DNA of 37,918 nucleotides, taken from positions 1 to 37,918 of IMG/VR virus record IMGVR_UViG_3300028388_002881, one strand, 5' to 3'. Positions 2,485 to 7,860 of the stretch are shown here, piece after piece. The DNA comes from a virus. The position numbers and the translations under genes are program-made. The notes beneath the pieces were generated by a model. It was not told where the DNA came from. It did no database searches and was given only the letters and a program-made list of their open reading frames with translations. Within the stretch, counting starts at the first letter, position 1. Each line of letters begins with the position of its first letter.

Positions 2485-2868
2485 ATGAAGGAACTTCTGA
2501 AAACGCTCGGCGCGCTTGCTTTTGCAGCTTCGGCTGGCGGGGCACTATGGCTGCTGTATTCAATCCCCGACGGCACGGAACGCGCGTCAGCGGAAGCGCC
2601 GAACCCATGCCCGCACGAAGCCGGCGCATACCTTGAAGCGAGACGTGCCGTTGAAGGTATGCTGAAGTCGCCCCGCACGGCTGACTTCCCACGGATGTCG
2701 CACTCAGCCGTCATTGTGGACAACTATGCCGAGTGCGAATATCTGATCCGGTCGTATGTTGACGCCGAAAACAGCTTTGGTGCCAACGTCCGCACGGTGT
2801 GGACAGCGGATGTCACCCACGACCTTGAAAGCCGCCGATGGACGGCTGACGCGCGGTTTGCCGACTAA
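2485..2868 (+). CDS. Membrane-anchored or exported hypothetical protein (moron)
   Basis: This 127-residue protein has a short N-terminus (MKELLKTL), one hydrophobic segment at about residues 8-25 and then a soluble, probably periplasmic domain. The domain contains the motif AVEGMLKSPRTADFP, which resembles the LKSPSTAxFP signature of small exported proteins found in phages and bacteria. A GGAGG lies about seven bases before the ATG at 2485. The gene runs against all neighbours. It begins 21 bases beyond the tape measure start, so the two are divergent, and its end overlaps the end of the chaperone gene by four bases. The placement suggests an accessory gene expressed independently of the late operon, perhaps in the lysogen. 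The function is unknown. Confidence 0.75.
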   Translation: MKELLKTLGALAFAASAGGALWLLYSIPDGTERASAEAPNPCPHEAGAYLEARRAVEGMLKSPRTADFPRMSHSAVIVDNYAECEYLIRSYVDAENSFGANVRTVWTADVTHDLESRRWTADARFAD

Positions 2869-3260
2869 CGATCCATCGGCGCAATCGCCAGCATGTTCGC
2901 CCCGTCGCTCAAGCCCCGATCATAGGCCACGCACAAGCGGCGGATGGCGTCGATTTCCCACGCCTCGGACACGTCGCCCGTTGCCTGCGCGTAAGCCCAT
3001 ATCTCAGGCCAGTCGGTCGGCCTGCACCCGCCCATGCCATGCGCCCTGACCGGCCCAAGCCGGTTCATGGCTTCGATCAGGTAGGCCCCCACCGTCACCG
3101 TCGGCAGCGGCGGGGGTGCACCATGATCGAGATAGAGTTGCAGGCGGGACTTGGCTTCGCGCTTGGTGCCCTTGCCGCCCACCTGCGGCGTCTCCCGGTG
3201 CGCGTGCAGGAAACCAAGCTGTTCGGCGTAGAGGCTCAGGGCGTCGATGCGCCCTTCCAA
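2865..3260 (-). CDS. Tail assembly chaperone, T-like extension made by -1 frameshift
   Basis: This frame opens just after a TGA in the -1 frame at the end of the upstream chaperone gene and has no ATG. Its first codon after the slippery heptamer is TTG at 3260, giving the reading LEGRIDALSLYAEQLG. It contains MGGCRPTDWPEIWAYAQATGDV, cut here for length to its recognisable core MGGCRPTDWPEIW, as seen in second-chaperone proteins encoded before the tape measure. By analogy with lambda gpG/gpGT it is probably made as a C-terminal extension of the upstream protein by -1 ribosomal frameshifting, not as a free protein. The fusion would bind the tape measure and recruit tail tube subunits. Independent initiation at TTG is the less likely alternative. 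Confidence 0.75.
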   Translation of the reverse strand: MEGRIDALSLYAEQLGFLHAHRETPQVGGKGTKREAKSRLQLYLDHGAPPPLPTVTVGAYLIEAMNRLGPVRAHGMGGCRPTDWPEIWAYAQATGDVSEAWEIDAIRRLCVAYDRGLSDGANMLAIAPMDR

Positions 3261-3676
3261 AAATTTGCCCGCTCACCCGCGAACTTCATCACCTGGTTCA
3301 CCAGATCGTCGGACATTTCGAAGAACTGGCGCTTGCCCTCGGGCGTGGCTGGAAGCGGCTTGCCGTCGCCGTCGAACAGCCCGTGAAAGCCCGTGACCAG
3401 CGATGCTACGAACTCAAGACCTTGTTCCTCGGCTTCGGCGTCGTCGGGGTCTTTCATCTTGCGGCGCTGGATCTCGCGCGCCTTCTCGCGGACCCGCTCG
3501 CTTTCCATGCCCAGCACGTCGCACCCGACCTTTTCGGCCTTCGTCTTGTCCACGGCGCGGCCCACTTCGTCGGCGCCTTCGCCGGTGTAGAGCAGATGCC
3601 CGAGCGCGGGGTGGCGCAGATGCAGGAACGCGCCCTTGCTGGCGCCGGTCTTGGTTTCAAGGCTCGTCAGTTTCAT
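3236..3676 (-). CDS. Tail assembly chaperone, G-like
   Basis: A 146-residue protein starting MKLTSLETKTGASKGAFLHL, with GGAG upstream of the ATG at 3676. It lies between the tail tube gene and the tape measure, the conserved slot for the tail chaperone. The middle is charged and rich in Glu, Lys and Arg. The end of the gene carries the heptamer AAATTTT (read GCA AAT TTT) at 3260-3266, where ribosomes can slip -1 into the following frame; those that do not slip reach the TGA at 3236. The assignment rests on position, length and the frameshift architecture more than on a diagnostic motif. Confidence 0.8.
   Translation of the reverse strand: MKLTSLETKTGASKGAFLHLRHPALGHLLYTGEGADEVGRAVDKTKAEKVGCDVLGMESERVREKAREIQRRKMKDPDDAEAEEQGLEFVASLVTGFHGLFDGDGKPLPATPEGKRQFFEMSDDLVNQVMKFAGERANFWKGASTP
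3260..3266 (-). promoter_or_regulatory. Slippery heptamer for -1 programmed frameshift
   Basis: On the minus strand the sequence A AAT TTT sits in frame 0 of the G-like chaperone and fits the X XXY YYZ rule exactly. Slipping back one base puts the ribosome into TTG GAA GGG CGC, the start of the downstream open frame. That -1 frame is closed by a TGA only four codons upstream of the heptamer and has no ATG, so the frameshift is the economical explanation for its expression. Confidence 0.75.
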
Positions 3677-5304: not shown

Positions 5305-5463
5305 ATGACCGAAGCCCAGATCACCGAAGCAGTCGAAACCATCAACCGGGTCGAGCGCGCCATGATCGACGCAATGAGTGACGCAGAATACGCCGCATGG
5401 TCCGCAATCCCTGCCGAGGAACGCAAGCGGATGCTTCACGCCGCTTACCGCGCCACTCGCTAA
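5305..5463 (+). CDS. Small hypothetical protein, first gene of HTH cassette
   Basis: A 52-residue acidic, helical protein starting MTEAQITEAVETINRVERAM and ending AERKRMLHAAYRATR (shortened to that core). GGAG lies nine bases before the ATG. It is the first of three plus-strand genes inserted among minus-strand late genes and is followed by a GC-rich hairpin. No family was recognised. Its separate promoter and opposite strand suggest expression apart from the late programme. Confidence 0.6.
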   Translation: MTEAQITEAVETINRVERAMIDAMSDAEYAAWSAIPAEERKRMLHAAYRATR

Positions 5464-5470
5464 TCAAGCC

Positions 5471-5489
5471 GCCGGGCCTCGCGCCCGGC
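5471..5489 (+). repeat. Intercistronic hairpin
   Basis: GCCGGGC (5471-5477) pairs with GCCCGGC (5483-5489) across a five-base loop, a perfect seven-pair stem between the first two genes of the plus-strand cassette. No U-run follows, so it is more likely an attenuator or mRNA-stabilising structure than a strong terminator. Confidence 0.45.
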
Positions 5490-5515
5490 CCCACTACCTC
5501 ACAGGAGACAGGCAG

Positions 5516-5725
5516 ATGAACGAAGCAACCAAATCCCGCCGGATCAACAATCGCTTGGAGAAAATCAGCGGGCAAGCGTGGGCGGTTTTCGCAAATGACG
5601 CCGTCGTCGCGATTTACGACAATGGCTCAAAGGCATGTGAAGTTGCATCACGGCTTATGATGGTTCGCAATAATGATTGCGTCACATGGGGGCCGCTAAA
5701 CATGAAGAAATGGCAGGCGGCATAA
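5516..5725 (+). CDS. Hypothetical protein, second gene of HTH cassette
   Basis: A 69-residue protein with a basic start (MNEATKSRRINNRLEK) and a compact alpha/beta middle (AWAVFANDAVVAIYDNG). An AGGAGA stands eight bases before the ATG. Its stop overlaps the start of the HTH gene as TAATG, so the two are translationally coupled. A small gene coupled to an XRE regulator recalls toxin-antitoxin or immunity modules, but no toxin motif is visible. The function is unknown. Confidence 0.65.
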   Translation: MNEATKSRRINNRLEKISGQAWAVFANDAVVAIYDNGSKACEVASRLMMVRNNDCVTWGPLNMKKWQAA

Positions 5726-5958
5726 TGCCCCGCACCATTGCTGACATGACCCCCGAAGCGTTCAAGCAGGCCCGACAATCGCTGGGCCTCTCGCAGTCCG
5801 AAGCCGCCCGCGTGCTGGGCTACGGTGACAAAGCCCGCGTATCTGAAATCGAAAGCGGCAAGCGCAACCCCGGCGATGCTGTTGTGCGCCTCCTTCGCGC
5901 GTATCTAGCAGGCTACCGTTCGGATGATTGGCCGAAGTCAGTCACCCGGCCCGAGTAG
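5725..5958 (+). CDS. XRE-family HTH regulator
   Basis: A 77-residue protein with a helix-turn-helix at about residues 17-45: FKQARQSLGLSQSEAARVLG followed by ARVSEIESGKRNP, the standard Cro/C1 pattern. The start ATG overlaps the previous stop (TAATG). The end overlaps the convergent MuF-like head gene by 21 bases. It probably represses its own promoter at 5241-5269 or acts on other phage or host promoters. It is smaller than, and unlike, the main repressor at 28014-28307. Confidence 0.8.
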   Translation: MPRTIADMTPEAFKQARQSLGLSQSEAARVLGYGDKARVSEIESGKRNPGDAVVRLLRAYLAGYRSDDWPKSVTRPE

Positions 5959-6963
5959 ACTGGTAAAGTCCACGTCCGTCCTCAGCACACACCGGCAGTT
6001 GATGATTTCCTCCGCCGGTGCCCCCATGCTACGGTCGCCGGGGTGGTTCATCAGGTAGCCGCCCACGTCGAACGGCTCGCCCTTCTTGCGTTCCTGCCCG
6101 TCCGCTGCGGCGTGCGTCTCGCGCGTGTCGCCGTCGCTGGCCGCGTCCCAGCGCACGGTGACCGCCTCGGGCCGCAGCCCTTCGCGCTCCATCATCTGTG
6201 ACAGGGCTTCGTCCTGCGCGGCGTGCAGGCTCCCGAGCAATTCCGTGCGCGCGATGGTCTCGCCCCGGTAGCGCAAAAGCCCATTCCGATACGACCGCGT
6301 GATCCGGTCCGCATCCGCCGCCGATACGCCGCGTCCCTCGTTGATCGCCCGCAACACCGTCCGGTCGAACCGCCGATCCCGTGCCGCGCGCCGCAAGTAG
6401 GCCGGGTCGCCGTTGAGCAATTCTTGCCGGGCTGCGTCGGCCCATCCGGCTTGGCGCGTGGTCAGCCCGACGATGCCGCCCTCGCGGCGCCCGGTCGCCC
6501 GGTTGATCCTGCCCACCAGGTTGAGCGCTGCCGTGCGCGGTGCCGTCCCGACCTCCATTCCGGTTGTCAGCGCGGCCCGCACCGTGTCCCGCACGTCCCC
6601 GCTGATTTCCGTGATGAGCCGCGACGACTGCTCCGCGACAAACCTTTCCGCCCTCGGGTTGCGCGGATCGAAGAACCCCCTCGCCTGCGCCCCCTGCGCC
6701 CGTGCGCTTGCCGCTAGGCCCGCCATCGTCAGGTCGCCGCCTGCGCCATAGGCTGCGGCTAGAGCCTCGTCCAGCGGCCGGAAATAGCCCCTCTCGGCCC
6801 GGATCAACTCCACCGCCCGCTCAATGTCGCCCGCGCGAATGGCGTCCTCCAGCGCGCGCAAGGAAACGTCGTCGGTGATGCGCTGGATCGACTGCCGGAA
6901 CGCTTCGGCGACCTGCGGCGCGAGTTCGTCCAGCAGGTCAAGCAGAGATTGCCGTTTTGCCAT
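5938..6963 (-). CDS. MuF-like minor head / head morphogenesis protein
   Basis: A 341-residue protein. The C-terminal third carries the phage Mu F / SPP1 gp7 signature: ARTELLGSLHAAQDEAL, then VRWDAASDGDTRETHAAADG, GEPFDVGGYLMNHPGD and the closing NCRCVLRTDVDF. The N-terminal part is helical and specific to this group. Such proteins bind the portal or capsid interior and are needed for head assembly; some are ejected with the DNA. The ATG at 6963 (GGGAG upstream) is preferred to one 18 bases further upstream that falls inside the terminator hairpin. The gene normally sits near the portal but here lies after the connector genes. Confidence 0.85.
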   Translation of the reverse strand: MAKRQSLLDLLDELAPQVAEAFRQSIQRITDDVSLRALEDAIRAGDIERAVELIRAERGYFRPLDEALAAAYGAGGDLTMAGLAASARAQGAQARGFFDPRNPRAERFVAEQSSRLITEISGDVRDTVRAALTTGMEVGTAPRTAALNLVGRINRATGRREGGIVGLTTRQAGWADAARQELLNGDPAYLRRAARDRRFDRTVLRAINEGRGVSAADADRITRSYRNGLLRYRGETIARTELLGSLHAAQDEALSQMMEREGLRPEAVTVRWDAASDGDTRETHAAADGQERKKGEPFDVGGYLMNHPGDRSMGAPAEEIINCRCVLRTDVDFTSLLGPGD

Positions 6964-6978
6964 TGAGGCTCCCAACGC

Positions 6979-7001
6979 CAAAGACCCCGCCTAAGCGGGG
7001 C
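6979..7001 (-). terminator. Intrinsic terminator after the AT-rich moron
   Basis: CCCCGC (6985-6990) and GCGGGG (6995-7000) form a stem with a four-base loop. On the minus strand the stem is followed by TCTTT. It sits between the stop of the AT-rich gene (7027) and the MuF-like gene, and could insulate the moron from the late genes downstream. Confidence 0.6.
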
Positions 7002-7026
7002 TGTAATGCTGCCGATGTTTTGAGTT

Positions 7027-7572
7027 CTAGGCGGAGGCGCCTTTGTTGTTGCGCTCTAGATCTTTGATCTTTGCGTCAACCTCAAGAATTTGTGCCTCTA
7101 GCACTTCGCGCCTTTTCTTAAGCCTGTGAATTGCGGCATCATCAATCAGGCCTAGATACTCCAAGACCTCATCAAGACATTTTTTTCCAAAGTTGTGCCA
7201 ACTTTTACTGACTTTTTGGTTTTCTTCTTTTGCAAAAAACTCTTTAGCCTTTTTGACGCTCGAAAAACCATAATTCGACAAGGCGTTTTTGCTTCTTGTT
7301 GATAGTGTTGTGTTGGCAATTAAATCACCATCACGCTTGCCCGTGTCTATCTCGTAAAGGACAAGCGCCTTGCGATACACCTTTGATACAGCAATATTCG
7401 CCATTGTATGGCTCTTTCCTTCACTGGCGCCTGCTTCTTTGTATGTCTTGCCGTCAATTAAGACAGCAAGAGCCATCCTTTTCCGAGATTGCGTTTCGTC
7501 AACTTTTTGAACGTATCGCGCCAATAGCTCCGGGTCGCCATCTATCTCTATCATTGACTGGCTTTTAGTCAT
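7027..7572 (-). CDS. Sigma-4-like HTH plus RNA polymerase alpha-CTD-like protein (moron)
   Basis: A 181-residue protein, clearly more AT-rich in DNA than its neighbours. Residues about 30-70 (LAVLIDGKTYKEAGASEGKS and onward to VYRKAL) have the spacing of a sigma-70 region 4 helix-turn-helix. Residues about 89-143 match the RNA polymerase alpha C-terminal domain: LSTRSKNALSNYGF, then NFGKKCLDEVLEYLGL, against the bacterial L(S/T)xRSxNxL...N(L/F)GKKSLxEI. Residues 145-175 are a likely coiled coil (LKKRREVLEAQILEVDAKIK). The ATG at 7572 has GGAGG six bases upstream. It probably binds DNA and perhaps RNA polymerase or UP elements to redirect transcription. The role is inferred; the alpha-CTD similarity is seen directly. 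Confidence 0.75.
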   Translation of the reverse strand: MTKSQSMIEIDGDPELLARYVQKVDETQSRKRMALAVLIDGKTYKEAGASEGKSHTMANIAVSKVYRKALVLYEIDTGKRDGDLIANTTLSTRSKNALSNYGFSSVKKAKEFFAKEENQKVSKSWHNFGKKCLDEVLEYLGLIDDAAIHRLKKRREVLEAQILEVDAKIKDLERNNKGASA

Positions 7573-7586
7573 CCCCGCCTCCGTTG

Positions 7587-7615
7587 CGGCCCGCCTTGTA
7601 AAGCGAGGCAGGCCG
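7587..7615 (-). promoter_or_regulatory. Hairpin just upstream of the alpha-CTD-like gene
   Basis: On the minus strand CGGCCTGCCT pairs with AGGCGGGCCG (one G-U pair) around a nine-base loop, ending about 14 bases before the start codon. It may end readthrough from the late operon or control translation of the moron. No U-run follows. Confidence 0.4.
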
Positions 7616-7662
7616 GGCGGAAACACGGCTTTTCGGGAGCGACCCTATCCTCGCGGGTCAGT

Positions 7663-7860
7663 CTACTTGCGCGGCCCCATCGCATCAATAGCCGCGAAGA
7701 GCGCGCACCACCACGCCAGCCCGGCCCGCGCTTCCACCTCTGCCGCCGCGTGCAAGTGCAGCATCGCATCCCGCGCGCCCTTAGCGTGCGCCGCGCGGAT
7801 CGCATCGCGGCAGGCGTCGGGGTGGTCGTCGAGGATGCTACGCGGCAAGGTCCACCTCAT
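7663..7860 (-). CDS. Small hypothetical protein after head closure gene
   Basis: A 65-residue protein read from the ATG at 7860 (MRWTLPRSILDDHPDACRDA), with a helical Ala-rich C-terminus ending WWCALFAAIDAMGPRK. It overlaps the end of the head closure gene by 23 bases. A TTG at 7848 preceded by AGGTGG is an alternative start. No family was recognised. It lies at the junction between the structural genes and the AT-rich moron. Confidence 0.5.
   Translation of the reverse strand: MRWTLPRSILDDHPDACRDAIRAAHAKGARDAMLHLHAAAEVEARAGLAWWCALFAAIDAMGPRK

Follow-up and report, generated by a model that had tools for sequence, protein, structure and literature searches.

The α N-terminal domain (α-NTD) of the RNA polymerase α subunit, RpoA, ties the α C-terminal domain (α-CTD) to polymerase. 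Within the α-CTD, E261 is the main sigma-contact residue, and N268, G296, K298 and E302 contact UP-element DNA. In E. coli, R265 has been reported as the residue that binds the minor groove of the UP element (PMC3828302). RpoA is a known target of attack or modification by phages, Rac being one example (PMC7552054), and ORF40 of Erythrobacter phage vB_EliS-L02 has been annotated as an α-CTD protein (PMC9127768). A search of the literature, limited in extent and covering few subscription journals, returned neither a functional study of a phage α-CTD protein nor a description of such proteins as a class. A phage with its own free α-CTD fused to a helix-turn-helix (HTH) would represent a different route to promoter competition. 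Here, we describe one such candidate. Pattern scans additionally reveal many phage α-CTD proteins, several of which carry a true sigma region 4.

A foreign gene in the head-gene cluster

The stretch of DNA that we analysed (the window) is a 37,918-base IMG/VR virus record. Its structural cluster is that of a tailed phage, with genes for the terminase large subunit, portal, major head protein, head closure protein Hc1, MuF-type head morphogenesis protein, tail completion protein and tail terminator. Set into this cluster, between two conserved neighbours, is a foreign-looking one-gene moron. Its product, P0001, consists of an HTH, an α-CTD-like domain and a coiled coil, in that order.

7027..7572, minus strand: P0001 gene (ORF 7572-7027, 181 aa, ATG start with a GGAGG Shine-Dalgarno; GC 44%; not in the related fragment L002)
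6946..7676, minus strand: inserted segment, or moron cassette (731 bp, where L002 has 29 bp; collinear flanks)

Moron status follows from the deviant composition of the gene and from an empty site with collinear flanks in L002, a close relative with the same neighbour genes. GC content is 44%, compared to 63–69% in the four neighbouring genes that were measured, and GC at the third codon position is 46%, compared to 80–87% in the same four (51/35/46% for the three codon positions of the P0001 gene). The MuF protein of L002 is 96% identical to that of the window. On one side of the insertion, window positions 8188-7677 align with L002 2022-2533 at 75.6% identity; on the other, 6945-5940 align with 2563-3568 at 89.5%. 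An earlier reading of the window, made from the sequence alone, had described an AT-rich moron unlike its neighbours, and both parts of that description are borne out. In two further phages with a similar MuF, Rhizobium phage RHph_X2_24 and Bacteriophage sp. 438212, the annotated genes adjoin MuF such that a P0001-type gene cannot fit, and in Paracoccus phage Pkon1 just ∼200 bp separate MuF from the preceding gene.

There is a second accessory slot on the far side of MuF (window 5305-5958, plus strand), occupied by a gene with an XRE-type HTH (phrog_14076) that by eye resembles gp24 of Ruegeria phage V16. The same slot holds an HNH-like gene (by eye) in L002 and a HipB/RelE toxin-antitoxin pair in Paracoccus phage Pkon1.

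Two hairpins flank the P0001 gene.

7568..7624, minus strand: leader hairpin, with the Shine-Dalgarno (GGAGGCGGGG) paired to an upstream CCGCC; candidate for translation control
6974..7002, minus strand: terminator-like hairpin (GCCCCGC-TTAG-GCGGGG-TCTTTGG) at the cassette end, downstream of the gene

The gene had been placed between a hairpin and a terminator, and the former is confirmed as a strong predicted hairpin. Its predicted energy is –31.7 kcal/mol (z –3.1), and none of 200 shuffles was as good; a longer fold of 147 nt retains similar Shine-Dalgarno pairing, with an overall z of –1.8. By hiding the Shine-Dalgarno, this leader could restrain translation on read-through transcripts. The downstream element is better called terminator-like: the hairpin itself is predicted (–19.6 kcal/mol, z –2.2), while its T-tract is weak and the pattern scanner did not list it. 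A similar hairpin follows the tail-terminator gene of L002 (∼5150). A simple scan revealed no sigma-70 promoter for the P0001 gene.

An α-CTD-like domain that retains DNA-contact residues

7141..7332, minus strand: α-CTD-like domain (residues ∼81-144; from PF03118, the structural model and the RpoA alignment)

P0001 carries an α-CTD-like domain. Scored alone, the domain matches Pfam RNA_pol_A_CTD (PF03118) at 26.6 bits (E 5.1e-6), above the curated cut-off of 23.8 bits. The whole protein scores 23.2 bits (E 5.7e-5), 0.6 bits below the cut-off, and P0001 with its neighbours in frame scores 25.2 bits. The RpoA models of NCBIfam also hit this region, though weakly. In both libraries, only the CTD part of RpoA is matched; the α-NTD, responsible for dimerisation and assembly, is absent from P0001.

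We then considered the predicted fold. A model guided by a multiple alignment with 32 phage α-CTD fragments has a pLDDT of ∼90 over residues 91-110 and 131-140. VIA re-alignment of the Foldseek matches of this model (residues 77-144) placed RpoA α-CTDs in all 14 best rows, at Z 5.0–6.3 and mostly 2.0–2.8 Å; solved RpoA α-CTDs reached Z 6.3 at 2.2–2.5 Å, and structures from B. subtilis, M. tuberculosis, H. pylori and C. crescentus are among the best rows. The re-alignment took in Foldseek's own matches only, all with E-values >0.8 and none significant. At lower Z, the model also resembles the helix-hairpin-helix (HhH) domains found in RAD51 paralogues, and a search of the viral structure library gave no significant match. 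One caveat here is that the guiding alignment itself contained α-CTDs, and hence the fold test is not fully independent. The modelled fold thus supports the assignment, short of independent proof. Both the α-CTD homology claimed earlier for the LSTRSKNAL...NFGKKCLDEV block and the α-CTD fold, for which structure prediction had been proposed as the check, are upheld, the latter at the level of a model.

When P0001 is aligned with E. coli RpoA, R93 corresponds to R265, S94 to S266, N96 to N268, A97 to C269, G129 to G296, K130 to K297, K131 to K298, C132 to S299 and E135 to E302. The UP-element DNA-contact residues R265, N268, G296, K298 and E302 are therefore kept, and S299 is replaced by C. The position of E261 is T89, and that of D259 is N87 by gapless count back. 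Among the 32 other phage α-CTDs, the equivalent of R265 is R in 31, and that of N268 is N in 22. These two columns lie outside the search pattern used to collect the proteins; the pattern itself selected, entirely or in part, for N294, G296, K297, K298, L300 and E302, making their conservation in the phage alignment (A4) uninformative.

The helix-turn-helix and the coiled coil

7333..7494, minus strand: helix-turn-helix (residues ∼27-80; likeness to KorA/TrfB from the profile, sigma-4/LuxR/KorA fold class from the model)
7030..7140, minus strand: C-terminal coiled coil (residues ∼145-181; from the heptad register and the model helix)

The sequence-only reading took the HTH to be like sigma region 4. 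Because the HTHs did not line up in a global MAFFT alignment of P0001 with phage sigma-4/α-CTD proteins, we tested this element by profile. Pfam Sigma70_r4 (PF04545) had no match in P0001 at E ≤ 10. A custom region-4 profile, made from eight sigma-4 segments of phage sigma-4/α-CTD fusions and RpoD, gave –1.1 bits, a score equalled or exceeded by ∼9,000 of 20,000 shuffles. A custom KorA/TrfB profile of nine proteins gave 16.2 bits, higher than all 20,000 shuffles (best, 12.4) and than every control HTH, including sigma-4, TerS and XRE examples (≤9.5 bits). Judged by these profiles, the HTH appears nearer to KorA/TrfB than to sigma region 4. We call it KorA-like rather than KorA, because KorA was chosen after the Foldseek list had been seen and because Pfam KORA (PF16509) does not match P0001. 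As other candidate relatives, the terminase small subunit and Mor were set aside: TerS was the best phage match yet had an E-value of 5, with no match to Terminase_2, and Mor gave no match.

A single-sequence model of P0001 has low confidence (pLDDT 52 overall, ∼75 in residues 41-60). KorA and ArdK are among its Foldseek rows, at non-significant E-values of ∼0.7–0.9. In this low-confidence model, residues 27-80 fit several sigma region 4 domains at 1.3–1.6 Å (Z 3.4–4.0), and residues 27-78 fit sigma-E region 4 at 1.4 Å with a Z of 3.8, tied with LuxR, DeoR and others. At best, then, the HTH may have a fold of the sigma-4/LuxR/KorA class. The sigma-4 proposal may thus hold as a fold class, at low model confidence and with Z values of no more than ∼4 that other HTHs share, and is not supported as a sequence relationship.

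A coiled coil had also been noted after the α-CTD, and our data agree. The heptad register from residue 148 has I, R, I and I at a positions and L, L, V and L at d positions, a pattern equalled in 62 of 20,000 shuffles, and the model has a single helix at residues 145-180, with pLDDT mostly ∼90–95.

A recurring kind of phage protein

No homologue of P0001 was found in the viral_contigs, genome_contigs, phages or plasmids collections, nor did the α-CTD alone or the N-terminal part alone find one in viral_contigs. Scanning genome_contigs for W-x-NFGKK[CS]L returned zero stretches, a PDB sequence search returned no relative, and PHROGs, NCBIfam and PADLOC gave only weak RpoA and chance-level matches.

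Scans of IMG/VR with the NFGKK-type motif and with a broader one recovered many phage α-CTD proteins. At six loci (L007, L030, L046, L051, L054 and L060), both Sigma70_r4 and RNA_pol_A_CTD exceed their Pfam cut-offs; L030 is a human gut phage record. The protein of L011 is over the cut-off for the α-CTD and narrowly below it for sigma-4. Other proteins (L004, L005, L008, L021 and more) have a different HTH followed by an α-CTD, the HTH of L008 being weakly Mor-like. An N-terminal α-CTD-like domain is present in CcrColossus gp133 (L033 2468-3322) and in Ruegeria phage V16 gp23 (L031 2929-3795), ahead of domains that by eye and annotation are HisRS-like in the former and MazG-like in the latter. 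In an unrelated phage (L015 2417-2650), a 77-aa α-CTD protein that has a zinc-ribbon-like CPYCGR at its C-terminus starts where a MuF-like head gene ends, and this closeness to MuF may be chance.

P0001 is thus a divergent example among phage proteins that combine an HTH with an α-CTD, a kind that recurs but has been little studied. The idea of a phage protein that pairs sigma region 4 with an α-CTD fits the six loci better than it fits the window gene: the combination exists in those phages and, by sequence, not in P0001.

What P0001 may do

We give about even credence to P0001, the moron product, being a transcription regulator that binds DNA, probably as a dimer. The coil would dimerise the protein, the HTH would read a specific operator, and the α-CTD-like domain would clamp adjoining AT-rich DNA, so that P0001 would grip DNA near promoters with two of its parts. 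Such binding could compete with the RpoA α-CTD and sigma and thereby block promoters of host or phage, or it could help to hold polymerase. Counted for a regulator are the foreign insertion, the α-CTD by Pfam and model, the R265 and N268 equivalents in P0001 and other phage α-CTDs, the HTH nearest to KorA, the coil, and the recurrence of HTH plus α-CTD in phages; counted against it are the low confidence of the HTH model, the failure of the simple scan to find a sigma-70 promoter, homologues without known function, the finding of P0001 in no other genome, the selection of the NFGKK residues by the search pattern, and the MazG-like and HisRS-like fusions, which suggest that the domain may bind DNA in general, apart from promoters.

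Within this reading, blocking or silencing seems somewhat more likely than polymerase recruitment, since P0001 has no α-NTD tether and has lost the E261 sigma contact. For these same two reasons, and because the minor-groove contact residues are kept, a DNA-binding role is favoured over a polymerase-recruiting one. A more specific version, to which we assign a rather low probability, would make P0001 a detached α-CTD that competes for UP elements: dimerised by its coiled coil and equipped with a KorA-like HTH, it would occupy AT-rich UP elements and so silence or redirect strong promoters of the host, as one member of a widespread class of phage HTH and α-CTD regulators.

Alternatively, P0001 might recruit or redirect polymerase, its HTH acting as a –35 reader or β-flap binder and its α-CTD-like domain mimicking the UP-element contact, with host polymerase brought to phage promoters. 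The existence of phage proteins with a bona fide Sigma70_r4 and an α-CTD counts for this, as does the fit of residues 27-80 to sigma region 4 domains in the single-sequence model. However, P0001 itself is without sigma-4 sequence support, has T89 in place of E261 and has no α-NTD, and a moron that a close relative does without is not the switch by which the phage itself turns on its late genes. We consider recruitment unlikely.

Another explanation is that the domain is a generic HhH DNA-binding module and that P0001 acts outside transcription, in the processing or packaging of DNA or in binding the nucleoid. The MazG-like and HisRS-like fusions raise the possibility that the α-CTD-like domain is a general DNA-binding module apart from promoters, and the small protein beside the MuF-like head gene in L015 and the model's likeness, at lower Z, to HhH domains of RAD51 paralogues point the same way. 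Yet the domain scores specifically as RNA_pol_A_CTD and keeps the UP-element residues, and the gene is dispensable in L002 and therefore encodes no core packaging factor, leaving this explanation doubtful.

Least probable, in our estimation very much so, is a plasmid-derived KorA/TrfB-like repressor that acquired an α-CTD and serves as a selfish or superinfection-control moron against incoming plasmids or phages: the profile score above every shuffle and HTH control, together with KorA and ArdK among the non-significant Foldseek rows, is set against the missing Pfam KORA match, the choice of KorA after the Foldseek list and the absence of the KorA C-terminal domain.

Comparison with known systems

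With the KorA/TrfB plasmid repressors (PF16509), P0001 shares an HTH likeness that is gapless over ∼44 residues (AVLxDGK...SxG). It differs from them in having no KorA C-terminal domain and no Pfam KORA match, and in the added α-CTD.

Three phage proteins have an α-CTD-like domain or are annotated as such: gp133 of Caulobacter phage CcrColossus, the 'RNA polymerase subunit alpha' of Bacillus phage Goe8, and ORF40 of vB_EliS-L02. In the CcrColossus protein, unlike P0001, the α-CTD is N-terminal on a HisRS-like domain, and in the Goe8 protein no HTH is visible by eye.

The phage Sigma70_r4 and α-CTD proteins of the six loci have the same order, HTH then α-CTD. Those proteins have a true sigma region 4 and a long linker, whereas the HTH of P0001 is without the sequence signature of sigma-4, its linker to the α-CTD-like domain is short and there is a C-terminal coil.

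Finally, the domain of P0001 has in common with the RpoA α-CTD a score over the family cut-off, the modelled fold and the DNA-contact residues R265, N268, G296, K298 and E302. In contrast to RpoA, P0001 is without an α-NTD, has C for S299 and T for E261, carries about five extra residues ahead of NFGKK, and has an HTH and a coiled coil fused to its α-CTD-like domain.
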